A DNA stretch of 64,000 nucleotides, from contig JAQGDQ010000005.1 of NCBI GenBank assembly GCA_030141605.1, positions 310,001-374,000 on the forward strand. The letters are read 5' to 3'. Each line of letters begins with the position of its first letter. The stretch's first letter is position 1. Of this stretch, positions 18,769 through 52,000 are shown one piece after another. The notes beneath the pieces were generated by a model, which saw only the letters and a list, made by a program, of their open reading frames with translations, made no database searches and had not been told where the DNA came from. This DNA comes from Tubiluchus corallicola (Eukaryota > Priapulida > Priapulimorpha > Priapulimorphida > Tubiluchidae). The translations under genes were made by a program, and so were the position numbers.

Positions 18769-19992
18769 CTACATCTGCTCTTTCACACTCAACTGAAGCA
18801 AGTATTGTGCATTTTGGATATTATCAGGTGTTCCAGTAATTGTGATGATTCTATCTGAAGAGCCAGGAAGTGCTTCGGCGATTTCGATGTTCGCATTGGA
18901 CTGCTGGCGTATCTGTCGTATGCGCTGCCCGGCCTTGCCTATTATTGCGCCGGCATATTCTTTCGGAATGGTGACTTGCGTCCTGGTTTCGGGACCTCCA
19001 CCGCCTCCCATTCCCCCTCCTCTGTTGTTATACATCTGGTCTTGATATCTACCCATCTGGTTGGACTGCATGTCATCTCCCATTCCCCCATATCTGTCTC
19101 TGCCGCCTCCCATACCTCTTCCACCAAATCCACCTCCACCACCCACTCCACCCCCTCTACCAAATCCTCCACCACCATCTGATCTTTGTCCATAACCGCC
19201 TCCACCCCTACCACCTCCACGTCCTCCACCTCTACCACCTCCACGCCCTCCAAATCCACCACCACCACCACCACCACCTCGGCCTCCAAATCCACCACCT
19301 CTTCCACGCATACCTCCTCCACCTCGGCCACCTCGACCACCTCCTCCACCTCTGGGCAAACGACTACGGGGAAGACCTTCTTCTGAAGTGTAACCACCAT
19401 ATTCGTTAACAAAATATTCATCGAAATCATCAGGATTGTACGGCTGACTTGGTCCCTTCGGAGGTGCATTGTGCAAAATATCAGCTATTAGTTTAATACA
19501 ATCGACCACAACCTGTGGAGTACCCATTATTTGCGTGCATCGCTCGGTAGAATTAGGGCAGCACTGGCTATACACCTTGATGTTCGCGCCGGTTTGCTCT
19601 CGCAGCTCTTTTATTTTATAACCAGCGCGTCCAATAATCCCTCCCGCTTGACTCTGGTGGACAAGCATGCGAATATCGCACTTGAAATCCATGTCAGTAT
19701 AATGCTGATAGTCTTCCAGTACAGGTATAATTTCCAGGAGTACATCGCAAGCTGTATCAAGACCAGCACTAATAGTAAGAACACGCTCAGGGCCTTGACT
19801 ATCAGGTACAGTAATACCAGCCTTGTAATCAGTTCTCAGGCGTTTAATATTTGCCCCACCCTTTCCTATAATCGCTCCAGCATTTTTGCTCTGCAGTAGT
19901 ATTCGGAGATCAATATGCGGTGAATCTCCACGAGACCGCTTGTTGTATTGACCATTTTGGCCATCTTCAGCTGGACGTTTTCCTTCAGACAT
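18769..19992 (-). CDS. HNRNPK: Heterogeneous nuclear ribonucleoprotein K, coding sequence in one exon (407 aa)
   Basis: Poly(C)-binding nuclear RNA/DNA-binding protein acting in transcription, splicing and mRNA stability. KH1 ~28-92 has GxxG loop GKGG (43-46). KH2 ~107-172 has GRAG (121-124), with CCPNSTER as in hnRNP K/PCBP proteins. A long RGG/Gly-rich segment at ~214-333 replaces the K-interactive region. KH3 ~337-403 has GKAG (352-355) and ends QNAQYLLQLSVKEQM. The start is the ATG of MSEGKRPAEDGQ at 19992. The frame stays open upstream to 20100 but crosses an acceptor (CTTATAG, 20058-20052), so those extra residues are intron. A matching donor ACGG|GTGAGT at 20320/20319 makes a 5' UTR intron likely. 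No intron interrupts the 1.2-kb coding region, unlike the vertebrate gene. Confidence 0.95.
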   Translation of the reverse strand: MSEGKRPAEDGQNGQYNKRSRGDSPHIDLRILLQSKNAGAIIGKGGANIKRLRTDYKAGITVPDSQGPERVLTISAGLDTACDVLLEIIPVLEDYQHYTDMDFKCDIRMLVHQSQAGGIIGRAGYKIKELREQTGANIKVYSQCCPNSTERCTQIMGTPQVVVDCIKLIADILHNAPPKGPSQPYNPDDFDEYFVNEYGGYTSEEGLPRSRLPRGGGGGRGGRGGGGMRGRGGGFGGRGGGGGGGGFGGRGGGRGGGRGGGRGGGGYGQRSDGGGGFGRGGGVGGGGGFGGRGMGGGRDRYGGMGDDMQSNQMGRYQDQMYNNRGGGMGGGGGPETRTQVTIPKEYAGAIIGKAGQRIRQIRQQSNANIEIAEALPGSSDRIITITGTPDNIQNAQYLLQLSVKEQM

Positions 19993-20320
19993 TTTACTAA
20001 TAATTCTTGGACAAAGAGGCGAGAATCTTGCTGGTATGGGCTTTGAGAGGCCTATAAGATAAATGCAGATATTTTTAACATAAAGACAGTTCTGGGACAC
20101 AGTATGTTAGATAACAGTAATAGTAAAAGCAACTGAAAGGAGTCACCAGGCAGAACCTACATATACAAACTTGGGGGTGGCTACTCCTCAACAGTTCCCC
20201 CAAGACTTCCATATACAACACAACAGAGAAACCAAATGTTGAATCCTTTACATTTCATCAGCCCAATCTCAATTTTCATTCACATTTTGGGCGCCATTAA
20301 CTTAAATATAAGTACTCACC
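19993..20320 (-). other. hnRNP K 5' UTR intron and leader (inferred)
   Basis: On the minus strand, donor GTGAGT at 20319-20314 and acceptor TATAG ending at 20052 bound an intron of about 270 nt. 20051-19993 would be the leader joined to the ATG. This is inferred from splice-site motifs only. Confidence 0.45.
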
Positions 20321-21384: not shown

Positions 21385-22455
21385 AATGAGTTGCTGTCAG
21401 TGATGTTGAATCAAGCTGGACAGATGTAATTTCAGGTATCCCACTAGGTAGTGTATTGGGTTCAGTTCTATTCATCCTGTTTGTTAATGATTTCATAGAT
21501 GAATTGTACATAACATGGAAGATGTTTGCTGATAATACCAAGTTGTTTGCAGATGTGTCTCAGGAGAAGAATGTGAAGGAACTTCATCTTGACTGGTAAA
21601 GTTTGGAAAGTTGGACAAATCAGTGGCAATTAACCTTCAACGCTGAGAAATGCAAAGTGATGCACACTAGCAGAAACAACCCTGGTGCTGAATATAAAAT
21701 GAACCAACATGGGGTAGACGTATCATTAGCTAACAGTAGAGAAAGATCTTGGGCTAGACATAGATGTAAAGAAAGATCTTGGGCTGCATGTAGATAAGCA
21801 ACTTAAGCTTAGTAAACATGTTCAACTGCAAGCCAATAAAGGTAACAAGTTATTGGGTTTGATAAGAAAAACCTTCATGCATCACAATAAAGATATTGTA
21901 TAAGACATTAGTGAGACCCTGGTTAGAATATGGGCATGTCATGACTTACTATTGCTATGTCAAGGATTATAATTGCTTTATTGTCAAGGATTATGTAAAT
22001 ATATTTAAAGGAGAGCTACAAGAATGATTCCTGGACTGAAAGAGATGGACTATGAAGACTGCTTGGCAGCCATTAAATTACCATCTGCACATTATAGAAG
22101 AGCAAGAGGTGATATGACAGAATTCTACAAGTTTATCCAGGGCACATACAACATCCCAGTTCCCTTTAAAGTTGATGGCATAAGCAGGACTAGAGGGCAC
22201 GGCACAAAATTTAAGAAACCATACTGTAGGACATCTGTTAGGCAACATTATTTCTCATTGAGAATTGTTAATCTGTGGAATTCATTGTCAGATCATGTTG
22301 TCACTACCCCATTATTTAATATATTCAAAGTCAGGTTGGATCATCATTGGAAAAGATTTTGGTACCAGAATAAGCTTATATCCTTCCACCAAGTATGCAC
22401 AAATGTTATGGTTTTATCACTAATAAAGACATTAAACAATGCATCATTAAAGTAA
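21385..22455 (+). mobile_element. Decayed non-LTR retrotransposon (CR1/jockey-like RT, 3' part)
   Basis: Translation shows the reverse transcriptase block ISGIPLGSVLGSVLFILFVN, the equivalent of VPQGSVLGPLLF. Next comes KMFADNTKLFA, where the catalytic YADD/FADD has become FADN. Then comes SWTNQWQLTFNAEKCKVMH, followed by a duplicated and frameshifted stretch around 21740-21790. The C-terminal part at 22024-22452 (LKEMDYEDCLAAIKLPS, RRARGDMTEFYKFI, FSLRIVNLWNSL, LDHHWKRFW) is typical of the 3' end of these elements. An in-frame stop at 21598-21600, the FADN change and frameshifts mark it as dead. The 5' part is missing. Confidence 0.8.
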
Positions 22456-31957: not shown

Positions 31958-34900
31958 ATGGCTAACCAACTAAAAACACCGATTAGCATGTTGCAAGAGC
32001 TGTGTACTAAGCGTGGCCTCACTCCCAAGTATGATGTCATCGCTGTTGAGGGTGCTGTACATGAGCCCACCTTTGTGTACAGGGTGCAAGTTGGCGAGAT
32101 GTTAACACAGGTTTGTACGATATTATTAGCTTAGAAGGCAAAAGTTGCTATTTTTATATATTTTTACCAGATGTTTTGAGATTAATAAGTTCTGAATGGG
32201 CATAAATATTACGTCAGTTTGGTTATAAATGCTGTTCTGTACAGTCATCATTGTGTGGTGCTTTTAATTTTTTTATTTAAAGGACAAGAAAAGGGTACCT
32301 GAAGTAGGTTTCAGAAAAATTGCCTTGAAAATTATATTATTTTATAGCAATTTTATGCGTATATCGTACTCGCGTTGAAAAGGTCTTTTGTTTGTTTTCA
32401 TTTTAAATCTCCCGCAATACTGTTCTGACTATGCCATGATGTCATATACATACAACGTTAATCAGGGGAAGGAAAGGAAATGTTAAACTACGTGTCAAAA
32501 AGCCTTCCATGCAAAGTTATATTACCTAGCATTTTTCTTACCTGCCTGAAAGACTTATGTAACTAGAAAAGAAAATTATTAATTATTAAAAATGTTTAAA
32601 ATGTTGTTGACTCACCTCCACGGTGCATCACTCACTAACCAAAAAACGTATTTTTAATCTTATTGACAAAATACAGTAATTTAATATTTTACTTAGTTAG
32701 TGAAGCGTGTGCTATGAATACTCAATTTTTTTTCAAACTCTGCTCAATGTTGTCTAAACTTGTTTTAAATTGCTTATTGTCAAACTGGTCATCGTGGAAG
32801 TTTAAATTCACGTGTTTCATACAGCGTTGCCGCCGACTCGAACCCTGTATGCGAAAAGGCAATGCGTAAGTGGTTTAAAATTTTAATACAATTTTTTTTA
32901 AACTTTATGTAAGTGGAGGGTTGTCTTGTGCTTTAGTCCTTTTCATATATTAGAAAGTCTAAGTCTCAGGAAGACTTTTTTAGGTTTTCTAGTTTTCTTT
33001 TTGTGGTTAGGTTAGAAAGTTTAATAAGCTTTCATTATGTAGAACTAAAAATTATTATTTTTTGCCTTCAAAAACTGCAAGAGCTCTTTCCGATCATTGG
33101 CAGCGATTAGGAACAGCTCAATTTCATCTTTACCTTAGTTTGTAAAAAATATTTTATTCTGTGAATATTGTTGTTTTGTTAACAATTTAATTGCAGTTCT
33201 ATTAATTTTTTATTACAGAAGCCAACTTTTTTTGTTTTTCTTATGATCTCATAAACTTTATGTTGGCAAATCTATATTTAACTTTTGCTCAAGTCTTTTC
33301 ATATTGAAATGCTGAGCTGTCTTCACCCTAAGTATTAAACAATGTTTTACACTTATAATATATACCTTTGAGATTTTTTTTGCTCATTATTAAGATTTCT
33401 GGCCAAACATCAGATGATTCGAATCCTGCTACTATAGATTGTGTCTATGTAAGTATAATTTTTATTTTTTGTCAAAAAATAGCAGCATAACATAACATTT
33501 GCCACTTTTGCCCTTGATTTGCCATCTCCAAAATCAGAATTTAACTGTCCTAAGTATGATTCAACATGTACTCATTAAGATTTCAAAATTGTTTTTTTTG
33601 AATACTTTAAAAAAGTAAACTGCCTTGATCTGCCCTGTAAACCTGTAAAGTGATGGTACAGGTTTTAGTTTCAAATTTCAAGTTTACTTTAATATCAACT
33701 TGGCGGAATTATCTACAGTGTGTTCTCAATTACCCACCCATATAATAACAGAGGTTAGTTAACTTTCTATTCTTATAGCAGGTCTAGTTTCCATATAAAA
33801 CAAAAGCCATTAAGTTTTAATTTACGTGATTTTTATTTCATGAAATACTGTAAAGGTAAAATTAGCTGTATACAACATTTTTGCTTTTTGAATGTTTCAC
33901 TGACCACGTCTATGATTCTATATGAAAAAGGCAGCTAGGCGTAAAACAGTCTTCAACATGAATATTGGTCGAGGAACTGTCGGTTAGATGTTGGATAAAA
34001 AACCTGACTTTGTCAGTAGATGGGGAATTCGTTCTGTATGTTCGCTTGCTGTTTCATTATGATGATGCTTATGGTTCTTTAAAAAATAATGTCGATGCGG
34101 ACTCTATGATTTTTGTAGATAGCATTAATCTCCACTAAAGTTTAAAAGTGATATATTGAGGTTGGAAATTGTTGCGTTTTGGCTGCTGTGGTAAATATTT
34201 TAAAACTCTATTCGCCAAGCCAAGGTAAAGCAACTTGAAGAGGGTTTTGCTTTTTGTAGTTTTTCTTTTTATTTTTTGATTCTTCAGAATAAACAAATAT
34301 ATTCGTTTCACAACGATCTCTTTCTAAAATGACAGTGCCTAAGGTTTTTTGGAAAATTGCCATTACTGGCCTCTTGAATTCAACGTAGCAGGTCAAAAGT
34401 GCAGCTCCATCAGTCGATATCTGTCGTGAATAGGTGGAGCTTCAGACTTTTTTCGAAAGTGATGTTCTTATGGCCATTTTAAATTCAAAATGGCAGATCA
34501 AAAATCCAGCACCATAAATTATTACAAATTTGTTCTAACACAGTCTTATGAAGTTTCATGACACAGTTCATTGTGAATTCATGGACTCTTGCATTATACA
34601 TAACCTTATGTGTACTACCTGAAAATACTGGTATTTCTTTGGGGAAAAGAATGCGAACCTATATGGCCTTAATTACTTGTTTTTCCGGGTTTTCTAACAC
34701 ATACCTAAATGTTTAGTGAAACTGTACATGTTCTTCAGTTTTGCATATAATTCCAAATGCTAAAAGTTCAGTCATATCAAAGTATGTCATAACATATTTT
34801 AATATAAAAGTAAAAGACAAAATTTTATAAGATTTTTCCAAGTGTGCAGCCATATTTGTTTACAGCTTTTAAACCACTTTTAGCTTGGCTGTGCTACTTA

Positions 34901-37900
34901 TCTGCATGTATGTCGAGCTCAACATTATTTTATAGCGAAAAGAGTGGGTGAAACATACACTTATGTATTAAATAATATTTGTGGTTCTAAAATATTTAGA
35001 AATGCTAAACAGTACAGCAACAAAGTTAAATTTAACAGGCAAAATCAACAATAAAAATGATGAAAAAGAGCATTTCACCTATTAGAAACTCACGTTTATT
35101 ATATTGGATTCAGGAATTATAACAATAATAAATAACTAAATTATGTTGGGCATTATTCTATTTAAAAAATTGATGTATAATGTACAAATCGAACTTTGAC
35201 ATTGGTAGTATCTAATATTAACTGCAACTTTATGATACTATTCTGCCCTATACATTTATTAACATTTTGTCAAATTGGCGTCCTATACTTTTATTTTATA
35301 CTATACTAGTATTTTTTTGCTTTTTCCATCTATACCCTTATTTGAAATGCAAGAATGGGCTTTTTTTCAAAAAGTCTTCCTGACAACATCAACCATATCA
35401 ACCAGATAAGTGGTGATACGTGTCAAATCCGTTGACCAAAAACCTAAATAATTAGGCTTATTTGTGAGTTTTAGTTAGCAAAGACTAAAAATGTAAAATA
35501 GATAAGGCAGTAAGCAATTATGTTTGGCTTGTAATCATAGGACAGAATTCATGTCTTTTTCTTTTTAATCTTATGGAAAATTTTATTACCAAATTATTGG
35601 GAGATTTACTATAAGTATAGTGTGACAATAAACCTCTATGTAGTCAAAGTAAATAAATGAGTGAACCTAGATTCCTGCATATATGTTGCAGTTGAAGACT
35701 CAGCAGGCTTCTAATACTGTAACCTGTAACACACATTAATCTATCATTTTAGTTATCAGGTAAACTCATCCTTAAGTTAACACAGATAATCAAGAGTAGT
35801 TGAGTACACTGTATAATGATTTGTACTGTGGCAGGCATTATCATCATAATATTGTCAGCAAGAAGGCACCTTGGGTTTGTCATTTATCTTACACACCAAC
35901 TTTATTATTACTTTGTGAGTTGTTGGATTCTGTTGTGAGTTGTTATTGAATTTTTTAAATGACTATTGTTACAATTCTTTTGATGAATTTTTTATAAAAA
36001 CGTTGAAATTGTGATGTGCGTGCACATTATTCATATTTATTGAGACGCTCATACTTGCATACCCATGAGTGTGTATGCAAAATTATCTATTATCTATAAA
36101 TTGAATGTCTAATAATGAGTTGTGTCAGATTTAAATATGGTGCAGGACCACTGTTGCAGTAGGCCTGCACTGGACATAGCGTCAGGGTGCACAATACCTT
36201 TCATACCACTGTTTAGAAATTTGGTTATAGTTAGCAATAAAAAATTGTCTTTACAGGGTCAAGGAAGTAGCAAGAAAAAAGCCAAGCATGCTGCTGCACA
36301 GAACATGCTAGATAAGATTGGTGGTTTGCCCGAGTCTCACCCAGTCGGGCCTATTTCCAATGGGTAATTTAAATGAATAAAAAACTTTTATTTTTCTTTT
36401 CTTTATAAAGTATTTGTAAATAAATACTGAGTAAATTTGCCAGATATAAACATCCAACAGTGGGTATTTGAAAATTGTTTTTGACATCACTTTGTAGCCA
36501 ATTTTATTTAGTAAGTGTTCCATCTCCATTGAAGCATTGAAGAGAGTAGGAAATATTTCTGTCCAGTTAAATGCAAACAATAGATTTTGTCTTCGAGAAC
36601 TAGATGCTTGGTGTTATGTAAGAAAAAGAAATGAAATTGAAAACTATATTACATTATTGCAGTACAATACAGCAACAGCAACCACAACAAGTACCTATTT
36701 CTGCAGAAGACAGCGAGGAAGGTGTACCAGGCAATCCCGTAGGAGCTTTGCAAGAAATGACAATGGGTCGTCATTGGCCACCTCCAAGATATGATTTGGA
36801 GCAGGAAATAGGACAACCTCATGAGAGAGAATTTGTGATCATTTGCAAAGTACTGAAGTGGACAGAAACAGGTCTGCTGATAAAATGTTACAATATTTGT
36901 GCTTAGCAAATGGGATTAGTAAAATTTCTTTGCAAAATCCTGTTATAAGTTGCTATAAGTAGTACGTGACTACAGTTTAAATAGGTCATTTTGTGTTAAC
37001 TAACTAATGATTCACTATCTGCATAAGTTACATAAAAGGAATGAAAATGTGTGCATTTAAATTTATTGTAAACATTGTAATTGTTAACATGAATAAGTAC
37101 AATTTTGTGTAAGGGACTCATGTAAACTTGTTCAACTTTACTTTTTCTGTTTTTAAGGAAAAGGACGTTCGAAGAAACTTGCGAAACGTGAGGCAGCACA
37201 TAAAATGGTTGAAAAGCTCAAAAGTATACCAGATGACCAAAAAGTAGATGATTTAAATGAAGATAATATGATGCCACTGGTATATGTCTTTAAGTGCTAT
37301 CACTTTCATTTTTGTGTGGGATATTTTAGGCTTTTGCAACTGAGCTTCAGAACTGTTTCATGAGAAAGTCTATTATATCTCTTATACTAATAGTAATTTT
37401 AATAAATGTAATGGCTTCAGTGTTTATCAGCGATAGTTGTATACACGTGAAACAGACTGCATATTATAATGGTAATAATTGTTGACTGAATTATGCCATG
37501 TTTAGCCAAGATTTGCAAATGAGGCATTATGGATAATTTTTCTCTTTTTTGGAAAAACAGATAGATAACATGAAGGTTTTAGACGGTGCATCAAAAGAGT
37601 CATGGTATGAAGCGTTGAAGCAAAACAAGATTCCTACTCTGACTCCAGAACATAGTAAAGAAGTAAGTTTGTTGGCTAATTCATTTAATTTACTTTAAAT
37701 ATGAACACATGCACAATTTTGTTTCAATCATCTGTGTTTTAATGTGACTCCTAGCTGCAAAGCTAAACATACAAATGTAGTGATTTAGATACATTAGCTT
37801 GTATTAGTTTAGTGTAAGCATGACACTATCAAAGCAGTTTTGGAGTAGTCATAGCTTAGTATAGTAAACTATGGTGGTTTGTGTGGGTTACTGTGATTGG

Positions 37901-40383
37901 ACTTGCTATATTTGTGCAACTCTACTTGTCATGTATAGAATAGCAGCATTGGTTATTTTTTTTGTTTAAAATTTTCCAAATAATTTTCCAAGACATTTCA
38001 CCCCTTGTAGATCATCATCAGCTATGATAAAATTGAATCTAAAATTTAAAATGTTACCTTTTAAATTTTGTATTCAATTTTTTCACAACTGACGCCGATC
38101 TATGAGGCTTGAAACAGCCTGGAAAATTATGTTGATGCCTTCAAATAAATTCATGATCGTTGTTAAATGCCTGATTTGGTTATTTTTGCATTTTGTTTTT
38201 AGTAAGCACAGTGTGCTATCATACAAAATTGTTAATAACATAAAATCGATTTGGTACTCGTTACAGCGGGGTCATACGCTTAAAAGTGAAACCTGATAGA
38301 CTGTGAATAGATAAATAATTACAAATTAAATCAGTATTTTTAAAGTCAACTTCAAATCAGATAATTTTTCCTTTGCTTTAGTAGTTTGGTCTTTTTAGAG
38401 TGTGTAGTTCTAAAGTGATATTCTACACTTGGTAAATCAGTAGAGCTTGATACTGATAAGTTACTTTTTGTTGTTGAATAATTGCCTGGAAGAAAGTTTA
38501 CTATTGAGTTTTTCTTATGTCCAGTTTACGAATTCCTAATTAAGTTACTTTGCAGAATCAAATGAATTGATCATTTCAAAAAGTACTTCATTTTATTAAA
38601 CATCAGTCTATGTTCCTAAATTTAGCAAATCCAGTTTTACTGGTGCAAATAGTGTGAGATAAATAAATAAAAAGTAGCAGATTATAGCATTAAATTAATG
38701 ATTACAGTTTTGTAATTTAACACATGGGGCCTATAATCGTATGATAAGGTTATAGAAAAGTTTCTAAGCATATAGCAGTTTTGTTTGAAGTTATGTGGGC
38801 TTTTGTCTCCTTTTGATTTCAGGAGATTGATCATGCCAATGAAAGGATAAAGAAAGACCCCAACAGTTAGCTTTGGTTTTATCACAGTAATATTGCTGTT
38901 ATTTGGAAGCATCGTTGACAGCTTCCAAAGTAGAATTACAGTGTGAAGATTTTTCAGTGTTATTTAATTGTATTTAATTTTGTCTTGTTTGCACTGTTAG
39001 TTTTAGCATTTTCTAAATCTGCTAAATCAATATGGTTTTAAATGTTTAGTTAGTTGTACTAGAATTTAGCAAAGATTTTGCTCATTAGTTAAATTTATGT
39101 TTACCATTCAAAATGACATGGCTTCTTAAAAAAACCTTTTGCATCGTACATATACAAAATTTTTTAACCAAGTGTAAACCGGAGGGCTTCTTAGGCATGG
39201 GCAAAGTGAATATAGCCTAGTTTCTTTTCTGAGTACTAAACTTGAAACCACTTTTTTTAACAATATTGTAAGGAAATTTTTTGATAATGTGTCAAAATAG
39301 CATCTCAAAGTATTTAGTCTGAAAATAATGTTTAAGGTTTCTTCGTCTGATTTAATTCTTCTATTTGTTAATGTTTGATGGGTTCTTTCTGCCTTCTGCT
39401 GTATTATAAACAATTTAAACCTTTGTAGTGTTACTATCTTTTAAAAATCAATGTGAATCTCTAGTTGTTAGGCTGAGGATATTTTGTTATTTGGCTTCAA
39501 TATTTAGGTGTCACAGTTTCACAGGAAGTTGAAAGCCAGTTCAGGTGAGCATCTCTCTGCATTGCAGAATCAGTCGTTGGATCAACCAAACATCAGTTTT
39601 TGTCAGTTGCTGCAGGAAATTGCTCTAGAGCAGAATTTTGAGGTCACTTATGTGGATGTGGAAGAAAAGAATATACGTGGTATGTGGCTGAATCATGCTG
39701 CTTTTATTTTTGATCATCTGTTGTAGCATTTACATCAGTCGATTTTTCTCATAATTTTTAACTAAGAAATTGCAGAAAGCATACATGTTTCTCGATGTTG
39801 TTGCCTTGTAATCGTTAGGAAAATAGTGAGCTGTAGCGTTGCAACTCTGTGTTTAATTAATTTTGGCCGATGGCCCTGCTAGATTGAAATCATTCTGGAC
39901 CAAGTAATATTTGTAATTTTACTACATTGGTGTATAAGTATTCGACTGCTATTATGCAGTTTTGAAGCTACTCCTCGAAACATCTGTATGGGGGCGAATA
40001 ATGACAGATTTTTATTTTGGACAAGAATGCCTTATTTGTTAGGTGCAAAGTGTGTAAACCACATAAAATAACATAACATAAAGCAGTACAAGTGGTTTTC
40101 GAAACATTTTTATGGACATATTATTCAGTTTCTACATTTCCGTATCAACTCTCCTAGTTATTTTTGTCTGATACTCATTTGTGTTAAATTGTTGCTGAGT
40201 GTGTAGCATATAATACGAAGAATTCTATTTAAAATTTTCATTTTAGGTTTACATCAATGCCTTGTGCAACTTTCTACTCTTCCTGTTGCTGTCTGTCATG
40301 GAGTTGGTCCAACCAGTGATGAAGCACAAGCGCAAGCTGCACATAATGCTCTGCATTATTTGAAAATCATGACAAAGAAATAA
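31958..40383 (+). CDS. TARBP2: TARBP2/PRKRA/Loquacious-family dsRNA-binding protein (7 exons, 333 aa)
   Basis: Partner of Dicer in small-RNA processing and RISC loading. Exons: 31958-32110, 36257-36363, 36663-36871, 37158-37279, 37561-37662, 39508-39679, 40247-40383; phases join without a stop. dsRBD1 ~6-72 (KTPISMLQELCTKRG ... GQGSSKKKAKHAAAQNML); dsRBD2 ~111-178 (NPVGALQEM ... GKGRSKKLAKREAAHKMVEK); dsRBD3 ~259-330 (ISFCQLLQEIALEQNFEVTY ... CLVQLSTLPVAVCHGVG ... HYLKIM), the type-B Dicer-contact domain. Three dsRBDs in this spacing define the family; TARBP2, PRKRA and Loqs cannot be separated here. The ATG lies immediately after an acceptor, so a short N-terminal piece may come from an upstream exon. 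The 4.1-kb first intron holds a repeat copy and a candidate cassette exon (33395-33448); intron 5 holds a candidate alternative terminal exon (38823-38870). The donor of exon 3 (GTCTGC) is weak. Confidence 0.93.
32278..32935 (+). repeat. Dispersed ~0.7-kb repeat, copy 2
   Basis: Lies in intron 1 of the TARBP2-like gene, in the same orientation as copy 1 at 5857-6589 and collinear with it: GACAAGAAAAGGGTACCTGA, then GTTTGTTTTCATTTTAAAT, GACTTATGTAACTAGAAAA and CTTGTGCTTTA at the right end. It differs by many substitutions and short indels, so neither copy is recent. Confidence 0.75.
33395..33448 (+). other. Candidate 54-nt cassette exon in the TARBP2-like gene
   Basis: A T-rich tract and CATTATTAAG acceptor precede it, and a consensus donor TAT|GTAAGT follows at 33449. 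It is 18 codons long, in phase 0 at both ends and free of stops (starts ISGQTSDDSNPATID). It would be inserted between exon 1 and exon 2, in the loop of dsRBD1 where other family members have no extra residues. Skipping restores the usual dsRBD spacing, so the main form probably lacks it. Confidence 0.4.
37996..38021 (-). other. Hammerhead-core-like motif (CTGATGA ... GAAA), copy B
   Basis: On the minus strand CTGATGA (38021-38015) is followed, after a short potential hairpin ATCT-ACAA-GGGGT, by GAAA (37999-37996). The downstream text ATGTCTTGGAAAATT resembles that after copy A at 56335-56365. No cleavage-site strand or stem I was established. Confidence 0.25.
38823..38870 (+). other. Candidate alternative terminal exon giving a dsRBD3-less isoform
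   Basis: The acceptor TTTTGTCTCCTTTTGATTTCAG ends at 38822 (strong pyrimidine tract). Joined in phase 0 to exon 5, which ends SKE at 37662, it reads EIDHANERIKKDPNS and then TAG at 38868-38870. The product would have 246 residues with dsRBD1 and dsRBD2 but not dsRBD3. No donor follows soon, as expected for a last exon. I saw no AATAAA before 39508 (only a TATAAA-like variant near 39408), which is the weak point. Confidence 0.4.
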
Positions 40384-43300
40384 TACATTTGGGGTAGCAG
40401 ACATGTTTTACTCTACAGTGACGGTTACATAAATGTGGACCAGTGTAAGTTTCTGGTTTTATAAGTTTTATGAGTGGTTACCTGTTGATTTTCATGATCA
40501 TGATGTCACTTTAGTCATTCAGTCTGGTTCACTTGTGTGCAAAGAAATTACAGTGTAATTTTGCCTAGCCACTTATAGTCAGAAATCCTGTATTTTTGTT
40601 GAAAACATTGCAAGCACTTAAAATGGCCATCGTCGATTCTTACTACTCAAAGTGGTTGCTTTGTTTAATGGCATTTTTCGTCACGTGCAGGTCGTACTGG
40701 TCCGTTTTAAGTGATTGTTCTTGTATTGCTAAAACACATGTTGATTTTGGGTAAATCGATAAGTCTGTTCTGGTTTTAACAAAAAAACAACAGCGAGTAA
40801 CTGCTTGAAAGTAAATTTCATAGCTTTCAAAGTCCACAAAATAAAAATTATGTGCAGGAGTATTTCTGGTACTGATTTCAGATGAATAATAATAATAATG
40901 TAATAGTTTCACTGAATGCATTGTATGATGACATTTGACATTATTTTATGTTTCCCAGCTGCACTACATCATTTATTTTATAATTGGTTTGCAGTTCATA
41001 TCTTCAGGTTTGCATTTAGACTTAAAAAGTCTGTGATGTCTGTTTTGGACTGCATATCGATATAGGTGCTTCTGTGTAGGCTTCATTTTTTATTATTTTA
41101 AAAAAGAGGATATTACTTTGCTACGTGGGAAACAATTTTACAATGATCAAAAATATCATTGACAATGTAAACAACACCTGCATTCTTAAATTGTTTTTGC
41201 AGTAAAAGGGTGTGAATGTTTGCATTGCCTTGGAAGTATTATTTAACTTGATATTGCTATCATAAGATAAAAATTAACAGTAAACTGTTCACCTCTTTAA
41301 AAACCGAGCTTAACTCCACAAAACAAAAGCAGTTTAATTGAGCAGTTGGGCTACTTAGCTGTCCTACTGTCTTACTTAGTTATGCTTCCAGTTTAATGAC
41401 AATTACATGTTATACAATGTTGTAATGAATTGTGTGATTGTGTGTTATTATAATTATCTGCTTGGGCGAATTTTTAAAATTTTTGGCTTGTGGTAGTTCA
41501 ATTTAGCTGGGATGTTGCACATAGTTGCCCGTCCTTGTAATCTTTCTCTTACTGGTCCGGAAGTCATGCCACTAGCCTATTCTTTTCAACGTTCGTCTGG
41601 GCAAGTACTTATAACTGTACTGCAAAGACTGTGATCTACGAAATATTGTTCTTGTGGGTTTGGAACTGAAATCATTTGTCAGCTGCGTTGTGCTAAATGT
41701 CAAATTTAACGTTTAAAAGTTAAAATAAATTCTGGTCTGGCACTGATTTAAACAGCTAATTAACATGCAAACTTTAAAGCATATCATATTTTAGCTGTTG
41801 TTTAGAATTTCTTTGTGAACAGGGAAAACACTTTTTTTAGGAATAATACCTCATTGTGAATTATATCATTATTATGAATTGCTATATTTGTGACTAGCAG
41901 AAAGTTTTAAACCAGCAGCGACATTAAAAAAATTGCTGGCTCAATTTGATTAATTCTGTTTTGTTAGTTGTAGCAAAATTATTACAGTTGTTACTATAAT
42001 TGAATGATAAAATCATGTTTTTGTTTTTTAATGATTGAAATAATTTTTTATGTTTGAAAGTTTTGCAAATTGGTACATGTACTTAAAAAAGAGCATTTTA
42101 GTCTACAAGAGGAAATATTTTCACCGGTGTCCTTTTACGTCGTTGACTTTTGTAATTTATTGAAACAACTTAAAATTATGTTATGTGATTTGAAACGTTG
42201 GCTCTTAAACAAATACATGTATCTGTAGTTGTACCTATTTCAGTATTGCATGGTTTTCACCTCTTTAGTTTAATGGTGATGGTAAAATTGGTGTTTCACC
42301 AAGTCTCACTGCTAGATGTGATATTGAATCAGTCATTTTGTTTGGTGTTCATAATAATCATGTGTTAAGGCTGACAGGTAATGCAAAGTTCCAAATTGCA
42401 CAAGTTTGTAATCTCTGCATTTTTTGTGGCTGCATTGTCATCATGGGTTGTTAGTGATTAGGGATAAGCCATTAGATCAGGAGAGGTCAGCTTTACACAA
42501 CAATTATGTTATAAGTTATATGTTCTATATCTTTCGTTTTAGCTTTAATGTTTGCCCTCTCTTAAAATGATGGTGTATCTCTCATGGTTAATAGCAAATA
42601 AAGATGCATTGGAAGTTTTTCCTTGTGCTTTTTATTTCAATGGCATTTTGTGTGAATTTGTTAGTTCCACTTTAGATGTACATGTGTATACAGACCTAAA
42701 ACCTTTGTTAGTTTTCACAAAAGTAATATAGCGTATACCAATGTTTTGAACTTGCATGAACAATGCTGTCATAATTAGAGTTAAGCGAGTGAACTCGTAG
42801 AGATCTTATATTTTTTCATAAATAATTATCAGTTAATTATAGTTTTAAACTTTCTAAGATTAGTTTGGCATTCCACTTATTCACTCGTTCGGAAAACCCG
42901 AATATTAAGGCACGGAGTATTTTTCTAAAATTTATGTCCTAGTTTTTTAATTAATACTGTATAAGTAGACTAGAAAATAGGAAATATTCCATGTCAGTAT
43001 CTTATAAACACGTACAAGATCTCTGCAAAGTTGAAAGGTGTAAAAATTATAATTTCTACTGCGACCTTTCTGTTTATGAGAGGTTCTTTGCAACCAAATA
43101 TCATTCCGTGGAATGCATTTAAACTGCCTCCTTAAGTAGCACATATTTTTGATAATATGTTAACCCAAATCGCATTAAATGCTATCGCATGATTATTCCT
43201 ATTACATTAGAAGTGATATTGCTTGGAAATTATTACCCCATATTAAGCCTATACTGAAACAGTTGGCTTCATCATTTTGCAACTCATAATGTAGGTTAAT

Positions 43301-49001: not shown

Positions 49002-52000
49002 ATGGCTTTACAAACTAAAGTGACTGTGCCAAGTTCTTCAGGCCTCGGGTTAACTGTTCCTGAAAGTTATTCTTCCACACAGCAAGTAAGAGAAACTGGC
49101 CTGCTGAGTACTGCGTCAGCCAATTGCTCTCATTTTTCTTGCAATGAGAACCCATACGTAGCTGACGAGGAAGGCAAAGTTCTTGATTCTGTCTACCAAC
49201 GTGCTGTTTCATGCAATTATTACCAACAACTTCCTTCAATGTCACATTTACCACCAGGGTAATTATTTTTCATATTGATTAATTTTACTGGAACATTTTA
49301 TATGAAGTATGTTTATAAAATCAAACATACTGCTAACTCCTAGGGAATAGTTTTATTTTAAATTTCGTTAACATGCAAACTTGAACTTAAGTAGGCTGCT
49401 TCTCATAGTTCTTTTAAGTAAGACTATGTTTACAATTATTTATCTTTACGTTTGTGAGCAGTATATGGATTTAATGTAAGCTGCTGATAAGCTTTCAATG
49501 TAAATTAAATTAATGTTTTAACAGTAGTCTTATAAATAAATAATTTTCTTTAGAGCTACCTATGCTTCGGGCGACGTTGGTCAAATACCAAGTTATGCCT
49601 ATACACCAAGTGCTTCTAATATTCCCAATGAGGTGGCAACCCATTTTGCTATTGTGACTCCAAACACAAATGGTGATAAAGATCCCAAACATAACATGAT
49701 TTCTACGTTGTCTGAGACTCTTTATATTCCACCTGGACAGCAAACTGCAGTTATGTTAGCTGAAAACTTGGGAGACCATGCAGGTATTTTTTAAAAATGA
49801 TTTAATGATTTTGTTACTTGAGGGACAAACTTTTTTTATTGTATCCATGGAGGATTTATGCTCAAGAATAGACCTTTATCCTTCATTTATTTACCACGAT
49901 GATTATTTTACCACGTGTGAGATCAAGTTGAACAATGTCGGTTACCAATCAGTTTCATAATTGTATTTAACCTATAACTTTGTCTATTTTTTTCATAGTA
50001 GGTGGTATATCATATACTGTTGTACCTTCTTCAAATGCTGCACAGCAGCTTGATCCTGTAGCATATGCCATCGCCGAAATGGAAAAAGCTTCATCTCCTG
50101 AAGTACATCAACAACCAGAATCAGAAGAATCAATTAAGGAAAAGGTATTGTTTCATAACATATAGCCAAAACATATGAGAAGATATATGGATATATGGAC
50201 AACTAAGAAAACAACTAAAAAAGTCTATATTAGAACCCAGTAAAATTTTGTGTAAAAGTTTTTTGTTGACAAATGGACAGGACCGTTTGGCTGGACTCGG
50301 TGGTTATAGATCATATAATTTTGAAAAACATAGAAAGATTATTTTGATTTTTGAAGTACAAGTTTAACACTTATTTGTTTTTCTTCTTAGGTGTTAGAGG
50401 CAAGAGCCATCATGCATGAGGTAACAGATAAGCAGATAAAAAGGGAATTAGACAAAGAAATTAACGAAACAGTCTACCTTCCTGGTGAGACTGATGATTC
50501 TCTTACTAGTGACCCTGCAGCAAAAGACACTTCATTATCGGTAAGCCTGTAATTACTAACAATTTTAATTATTGTTTTACAATAGAACTTTTAAACTGTG
50601 ATGGATTCCTCTTTTATGTGTTTTACCAAATTTTTTTAAACATAAATTACAACACAAAAATAAATTACCAAGTGGATATCCAATTTTTGTGTTTAGGTGT
50701 TTACCCACGTAAAAGCAACCCTATCCAAGGCGGTATTAGAAACAATACCTGGGACCAAATGTAACTTTTTCAGCAGACTCAGAAAAGCATTTCAGGTCAG
50801 TGGTGTTGAATTACATTTACTTTGTAACTGCTATTATATACTCTGCAGTGAACATATCAACTGCTGTGTCTGTTGCGCAGAAAATGAATTCCTTTTAATT
50901 ATTATAAAAGCATGCTTAGATGAATGAGAGAATAAGGAGTGCTTTCTCAAATTTTGTAGTGATCCATATACCAGAGAAAATGATATTAAGACAGTTGTGC
51001 AACAATACTGTTTTGCTGCCATTAAGTGTTTGATTCCATTTTTTACAAATTTTCAGCAGATTGACGACATCTTGACTTTATTGTTATATTTAAGGTGACT
51101 CTTAAAAACGAAGATGACGGAGTTTCGATAAATGGATCATTTATCCACGTTTTAGAAGCTCAGCGATCGTTAAGACAATTATTGATGAACTGTGGCAGCT
51201 CTACAGAAGTTGTCGATGACCAACGTGACTGTGCAGTTCAATGCGAACTTGACATGCTTGACAAGCAGAGAGGTTTCATAATTTAATTGCATTTTTCTAT
51301 TATATTTATAAGCGCAACTTGCATATGTTCATAATGGTTGCTGCTCCTTTACATCATTTTCCAGAGTATTTCATGATTTTGACAATGGATTTCGTTTTTC
51401 TACAATGTATTTCAAAAGATAAATGATGGATTTTATTTTTATACAATGTATTTCAAAACTTTGTCAAAGGATTTCATTTTTCTTCTACAATGTTTTTCAA
51501 AACTTTGTCAAAGGATTTCATTTTTCTTCTACAATGTTTTTCAAAAAATGCACATTGAATTCTCTTAATTATACAATGTGCTTCCTAATATTGACAATGA
51601 TTTCTAAAAGTTGTACTTTACAATGATGATGCTGCTGATGACGATGACAGTGATTATGGTGATGATTCATTGATAATGATGACAAACTATGCTATTGCTG
51701 TTCCTTTAACTACAGATGATGCTCTAGTTGCAAAGCTTTCAAGTTGTTTAATTGCGCAAAATGTTAAAAATGGTTTGCCAGGCTACCCTATTCAGATGTA
51801 ATAACTGCTACTGGTAAACCTTTTCTTCATATTTTAGGGACTCCTTAAATCCAAAACTGTGCATCTTGTAGCATGTTTGTTGTACACTTAAAAGGACCAT
51901 TAAGCTGTCATTGCCCCAATTATGTGATTGTTTGGTCCCATTGATGTTCGTGATTCGCAGGTGACTCTTCTGCCTTTTCTGAACTATACAAACATTTGTC

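Follow-up and report, generated by a model that had tools for sequence, protein, structure and literature searches.

Isoforms of Loquacious (Loqs) that lack the third double-stranded RNA (dsRNA)-binding domain (dsRBD3) are already known from Drosophila, from the locust and possibly from the fall armyworm. The Drosophila forms are Loqs-PC and Loqs-PD (PMC9440893), and in Locusta migratoria, a seven-exon loqs gene gives rise to Loqs-PC, a protein of 286 amino acids (aa) without an intact dsRBD3 (PMC10266119). In Spodoptera frugiperda, novel sequence replaces dsRBD3 in a putative LOQS-PD, whose bona fide status was left unclear by its authors (PMC6124762). In TRBP, the human relative of these proteins, the Dicer site is a 69-aa domain at the C-terminal end (PMC2685382). 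In the parts of the literature on Loqs/TRBP isoforms and invertebrate Dicer/TARBP2 that were available to us, no such isoform was found outside arthropods. Here, we discuss a candidate in the priapulid Tubiluchus corallicola, predicted from a 64,000-nucleotide (nt) stretch of its genome (assembly GCA_030141605.1, contig JAQGDQ010000005.1, positions 310,001 to 374,000; hereafter, the window), in which a loqs/TARBP2-like gene may have an alternative end within its fifth intron. Positions are those of the window unless another contig is named.

The gene occupies 31958 to 40383 of the + strand and consists of seven exons (Table 1) separated by six introns, all GT-AG, with a continuous reading frame that encodes a 333-aa product. 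Its best solved relative is Drosophila Loqs-PB, which aligns with residues 5-333 (E 3e-91), followed by human TARBP2 (E 6e-56). A Pfam search recognizes two dsrm stretches and a Staufen_C domain at residues 259-327, the latter barely past its threshold (27.2 bits vs a cut-off of 27), and the Loqs dsRBD3 chain 4x8w_A matches residues 260-331 with an E of 3e-25. Three dsRBDs, of which the third is of the protein-binding Staufen-like type, are what defines the Loquacious/TARBP2 family, and the name given to the gene in the original prediction, which was made from the letters of the window, is therefore sound. Human TARBP2/TRBP is organized in the same manner, with three dsRBDs and a C-terminal domain that binds Dicer, and to our knowledge, it has no comparable tail isoform, human isoforms not having been searched as such. 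We found no loquacious/TARBP2-type Dicer partner in this genome other than the product of this gene. TTTTTAG lies directly 5′ of exon 1 and has a low acceptor score (-2.9), so a further 5′ exon is possible as a candidate only.

Intron 5 (37663-39507) contains the sequence TTGTCTCCTTTTGATTTCAG followed by GAG, with the boundary between 38822 and 38823, and the phase at 38823 matches that of the exon 5 donor. Conceptual splicing of 37662 to 38823 adds 15 codons to the 231 that precede them, the terminal residues of exon 5 being SWYEALKQNKIPTLTPEHSKE, and results in a 246-aa product from which the C-terminal dsRBD (259-327) is missing. The phase matches that of the exon 4 donor as well, and a splice from 37279 to 38823 stays open while omitting the 102-nt exon 5. 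The anatomy outlined in the original prediction, namely, a strong acceptor in intron 5 and a phase-0, 15-codon tail with a stop, giving a 246-residue protein without dsRBD3, was thus borne out.

An argument for the use of this end is that the acceptor and the tail occur together. According to a generic, hand-entered weight matrix, the acceptor scores 8.2, the gene's six true internal acceptors having scores from 0.3 to 5.8, and across the window, a score of at least 8.2 is reached by 5 of 3635 AGs on the + strand (this site included) and by 6 of 3492 on the - strand. The length of the tail is ordinary, as at least 15 open codons follow 32% of 364 intronic AGs; its codon score, in contrast, was equalled by none of the 109 reads that stay open behind an AG in the introns of the gene (38801-38899 excluded), and in comparison with coding windows of the gene itself, it falls at the 74th percentile. 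When both are added, the site scores 16.2, against 3.8 (standard deviation 2.2) in dinucleotide shuffles of intron 5, and the combination was matched in none of 1000 shuffles, none of 3000 order-3 simulations and none of 154 overlapping stretches of the window that are as long as the intron, the best of which reached 14.0. With acceptor and codon scores combined, the site takes 14th place among the 8071 AG/phase combinations of the window that remain open through 15 codons; 12 of the 13 combinations above it lie in a Gly-rich hnRNP K frame, which belonged to the codon training set of this ranking, and the other one is in a Pro/Gly-rich open reading frame at 2028. The non-coding background for the intronic, ranking and shuffle codon tests was provided by the gene's own introns. 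A codon signal of this kind is indistinguishable from a purine-rich splicing enhancer, but an enhancer would also favour the use of the exon. These statistics are good evidence, although not decisive, and because an acceptor joined to a coding-like tail is so rarely produced by chance, the balance tips towards the prediction that intron 5 holds a genuine alternative exon. The proposal of an alternative end without dsRBD3 is upheld as a reasonable reading of the locus.

The stretch with the score of 14.0 owes it to 50391-50540 (+), where a strong acceptor opens a 53-codon frame (VLEARAIMHEVTDKQ...) that is followed by a GTAAGC donor; this is probably a real exon of some gene.

The reading that we favour, with a probability of roughly 45%, is that 38823 opens a spliced alternative 3′ exon and that the resulting isoform would bind dsRNA while being uncoupled from Dicer. 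If 38823 were used instead of 39508, the message would stop 15 codons past exon 5, and the short product would retain the first two dsRBDs but neither the VSQFHRKLK segment nor dsRBD3. As its homologues TRBP and Loqs bind Dicer through their C-terminal dsRBD, such a product should still bind dsRNA and escape the hold of Dicer. It would then dilute the Dicer-bound form, compete with it or work separately from Dicer, unlike Loqs-PD, which serves a second Dicer. We infer the splicing, polyadenylation, translation and function of this form. Use of the exon would mean that an animal with a seemingly single Dicer and an RNA-dependent RNA polymerase (RdRP) makes a Dicer partner without the Dicer-binding domain; if the reading is true, the case tests whether dsRBD3-less Loqs is an arthropod invention linked to Dicer-2 or a general way of uncoupling dsRNA binding from Dicer docking. 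Confirmation would add a variant to the dsRBD3-less Loqs isoforms described above. Among these, the locust Loqs-PC differs from our candidate in that it lacks exon 7, and the use of an acceptor in intron 5 is not described in the available portion of that report (PMC10266119).

Several observations weigh against this reading. When intron 5 was shuffled with its dinucleotide composition preserved, an equally good acceptor arose in 63 of 1000 cases, and a less strict test (13 or more pyrimidines out of 16, followed by YAG) is passed in 2032 of 3000 simulated introns; one true acceptor of the gene, at 37158, has 14 of 16 pyrimidines. Taken alone, the acceptor is unremarkable and within chance. 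The codon score was trained on few codons (2309), and that of the tail falls from 8.1 to 5.4 once the background is window-wide. Outside masked coding sequence, 32 of 1199 AG-opened reads of the window on the + strand and 19 of 1169 on the - strand reach the tail score of 7.0, although real exons may be among them. In 38871-39507, the interval that separates the tail from exon 6, neither AATAAA nor ATTAAA was found, where 1.7 would be expected and 15% of shuffles have none, and a genome search for a retrocopy carrying the junction of 37662 with 38823 found none. Finally, the locust Loqs-PC failed to bind exogenous dsRNA in vitro (PMC10266119), which speaks against the expected dsRNA binding of the short form.

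The alternative that survives best, although we consider it unlikely, is chance, that is, an unused decoy acceptor in an AT-rich intron that happens to be followed by a short open stretch. The frequency of comparable acceptors in shuffled introns and the ordinary length of the tail are both in keeping with it, and so is the fact that the site was picked post hoc from a reading of 64 kb. What it does not explain is the coincidence of acceptor and tail, which neither the 1000 shuffles nor the 154 overlapping stretches reproduced.

Ranking below chance, and also unlikely in our view, is unproductive splicing. As both AATAAA and ATTAAA are missing from the sequence that separates the tail from exon 6, an exon opened at 38823 could continue into exon 6; that exon would then have 38823 as a second possible 3′ splice site, and the product, extending to 39679, would be joined to exon 7. 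Otherwise, a donor at 39267 could be used. The latter is both the first donor-like site above zero in 38871-39507 and the best one, with a score of 1.4, while the true donors of the gene score from -0.02 to 3.7. The stop at 38870 would lie several hundred nt before the last junction, 809 nt if the exon reaches 39679, and the message would be degraded or kept low without giving any protein, as either regulation or noise. The intact donor of exon 6 and the AATAAA hexamers past the normal stop of the gene, at 40840 and 41724, are consistent with this. On the other hand, an exon destined for decay is not expected to have coding-like codons as the tail does, an appearance that purine-rich enhancers could nevertheless produce, and weak poly(A) hexamers do occur 3′ of the tail (AATATA at 39209, ACTAAA at 39235 and TATAAA at 39405). 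Three architectures can thus be drawn: a 445-nt exon closing at 39267 or a lengthened exon 6 (38823-39679) in which translation stops early, the transcript being probably unstable in both cases, and, as the remaining option, a terminal exon that starts at 38823 and ends at a weak poly(A) site. Should either chance or unproductive splicing prove correct, the case would be an ordinary one.

The original prediction had gone further and proposed that the architecture of Drosophila Loqs-PD might exist here, conserved or convergent, so that one gene would supply both a Dicer-contact form and a form without dsRBD3. Taken as a statement on function, this would mean a tail that docks a Dicer helicase and a two-dsRBD form that serves the production of endogenous small interfering RNAs (endo-siRNAs), by descent or convergence. 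The overall layout is indeed alike, as Loqs-PD (359 aa) is encoded by the orthologous gene and has two N-terminal dsRBDs, no dsRBD3 and a short unique C-terminus, in our case that of a conceptual product. In the PDB chain, the fly tail consists of the 22 aa VSIIQDIDRYEQVSKDFEFIKI after residue 337, beyond which Loqs-PB continues as PRSSENYYGELKDISVPTLTTQHSNKVSQFHKTLK. Smith-Waterman alignment of the two tails gives a score of 20 with a gap penalty of -11 (p 0.038-0.045), in which only EQVSKD and ERIKKD are aligned, and of 24 with a penalty of -6 (p 0.007-0.013), in which DIDR-YEQVSKD is paired with EIDHANERIKKD; a score of 20 against the fly tail is reached by 1.5% of 1078 tails from the window. 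Support of another kind comes from the locust, as Loqs-PC had an effect on an endo-siRNA reporter in fly cells (PMC10266119), which leans towards the Loqs-PD idea, and the presence of an RdRP gene suggests that siRNAs derived from dsRNA may exist in Tubiluchus.

The details of the two ends differ, however. Loqs-PD leaves Loqs-PB before ENYYGELKDISVPTLTTQHSNK, while our tail leaves after the counterpart, ESWYEALKQNKIPTLTPEHSKE, so that the fly branch point corresponds to our exon 4/5 boundary (intron 4) and not to intron 5, ours being located one 34-aa exon later. The fly tail starts with VS, which can be coded by a GTAAGT donor and points to intron read-through, in contrast to the separately spliced exon proposed here. 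In the structure of Dcr-2 with Loqs-PD, the contacts are made by Y347, F354, F356 and the C-terminal I359 (PMC9279154), and none of these has a counterpart in EIDHANERIKKDPNS, a hydrophilic 15-aa tail without aromatic or hydrophobic anchor residues. The nominal similarity of the tails is the strongest support for the Loqs-PD idea, yet it is not enough, being outweighed by the position of the branch point and the missing contacts. Thus, the two dsRBDs, the absent dsRBD3 and the short tail of the proposed architecture stand, while the branch position, the origin of the tail and the Dcr-2 contacts do not, and as a reading of the alternative end, Loqs-PD is weak.

We also considered the positional equivalent of the fly end, read-through of intron 4, which is open for 27 codons and has an AATAAA at 37401, but we rejected it, as its codon use is strongly non-coding (score -12.6). 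A resemblance of the short form to R2D2 was likewise set aside: its alignment with solved R2D2 chains extends to residue 240 and is about 5 bits above that of the long form, and a PDB search with the 67-aa linker plus tail returned only two matches (best E 0.093), neither of them R2D2.

In the fly, Loqs-PD works with Dicer-2, whereas the one Dicer locus that we found here is not of the Dicer-2 type. The genome was searched with profiles exon by exon, so domains split between exons can be missed; the dsRBD search itself missed dsRBD2 and dsRBD3 of loqs, both of which are split. In contrast, the RdRP gene (PF05183; contig C1442:277554-287378, outside the window) was recovered as eight exon matches that are distributed from position 1 to 577 of 582, and coverage is thus good for some genes with many exons. 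Both Dicer_dimer matches are on contig C464, as is a Dicer_PBD match with an E of 1e-17, indicating a Dicer locus with a partner-binding domain. RNase III matches were found on C464 (twice), on C2222 (Drosha by inspection) and on the bacterial contig C953, and the 7 matches of PAZ are distributed among six contigs, including C464. The helicase exon of C464 is nearest to human Dicer (E 1e-56), followed by Dcr-1 (1e-37) and Dcr-2 (5e-21).

None of the inspected candidates for a second Dicer held up. A Dicer_PBD match on C890 is below threshold (16.2 bits, cut-off 26) and corresponds to a simple repeat, the five other PAZ contigs were read by inspection as Argonaute/Piwi, and of the 25 other genome matches of the helicase exon, at 24-39% identity, the one inspected (C1858) resembles a DEAD-box protein. 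Thus, Dicer-2 was not found in these exon-by-exon searches, which do not prove its absence, and the genome seems to have a single Dicer locus, on C464. R2D2 was not among the nine dsRBD matches, which comprise loqs and three other loci (ADAR, DGCR8/Pasha and Staufen by inspection), although no R2D2 query was run and split dsRBDs are missed by the same search. Chitin_bind_4, an arthropod cuticle domain that is normally multi-copy in arthropods, had 0 matches in the genome, and control genomes gave none either. Dicer-2 has been described as arthropod-specific (PMC10159624), and judged from these results alone, the animal is probably not an arthropod. Given its different exon position, a tail without anchor residues and no Dicer-2 found, docking of a Dicer helicase by this tail is the least likely of the explanations and, in our opinion, improbable. 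Similarly improbable would be a scenario in which a two-dsRBD Loqs isoform with a spliced [DE]IDx...E..xKD tail predates Dicer-2, having existed in an animal ancestor with one Dicer (and RdRP), and survives in the fly as the tail of Loqs-PD, a remnant that was later refitted to grip Dicer-2.

Table 1. Features of the loqs/TARBP2-like gene and of its candidate alternative end (window positions)
Feature	Positions	Strand	Remarks
Coding exon 1	31958-32110	+	Start codon; first part of dsRBD1
Coding exon 2	36257-36363	+	End of dsRBD1
Coding exon 3	36663-36871	+	Linker and start of dsRBD2
Coding exon 4	37158-37279	+	End of dsRBD2; phase-0 donor (591 nt of coding sequence)
Intron 4, positional equivalent of the Loqs-PD end	37280-37560	+	Read-through tail VYVFKCYHFHFCVGYFRLLQLSFRTVS, then stop
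Coding exon 5	37561-37662	+	102 nt (a multiple of 3), encoding 34 aa; phase-0 donor GTAAGT
Candidate acceptor	38803-38822	+	Pyrimidine tract 13/16 plus TCAG; top-scoring AG of the gene by the generic matrix
Candidate alternative terminal coding segment	38823-38870	+	Phase 0; EIDHANERIKKDPNS, then stop TAG
Would-be 3′ untranslated region or retained intron	38871-39507	+	Without AATAAA or ATTAAA
Coding exon 6	39508-39679	+	Begins VSQFHRKLK; start of dsRBD3
Coding exon 7	40247-40383	+	End of dsRBD3; closes with LKIMTKK and the stop

Some further searches and observations concern the intron itself. An origin of the exon from a repeat was rejected, as the genome search, which skips very common words, found no second copy of 38600-39100. 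The DNA of 38700-39000 had no match among phage sequences, and no relative of loqs was found in the contig collections searched (genome contigs and viral contigs). Intron 5 also contains, at 37961-38149, a near-palindromic inverted repeat with 94-nt arms that are 73% complementary and separated by a 1-nt spacer.

Elsewhere in the window, the hnRNP K-like frame mentioned above is a 445-codon, Gly-rich, KH-type open frame at 18769-20106 (-), assigned by inspection, and an open frame at 22009-22455 (+) resembles, also by inspection, the terminal part of a reverse transcriptase of the long interspersed nuclear element type. The ADAR-like and DGCR8-like open frames of the genome (638 and 749 codons) look intron-poor, as does the hnRNP K-like one. 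At C1933:445500-450500, a tandem repeat open frame with DCIRIDVSTKLT units adjoins a Piwi-like PAZ match. The bacterial contig C953 (20000-25005) carries, by inspection, cysS, a Mini-III-like RNase, a MreB-like protein and a DNA polymerase III delta′-like protein; the three best genome-contig matches of its cysS are metagenome-assembled genomes of Leptotrichiaceae (49-51%), and the contig comes from either a symbiont or a contaminant. A genome search for COX1 gave no match. Finally, Hox homeodomains were read at four loci, none of which shows the KLTGP signature of Lox5: three of Hox type lie on contig C1217, in a region of about 66 kb, and a Hox4-like one is found on C412.

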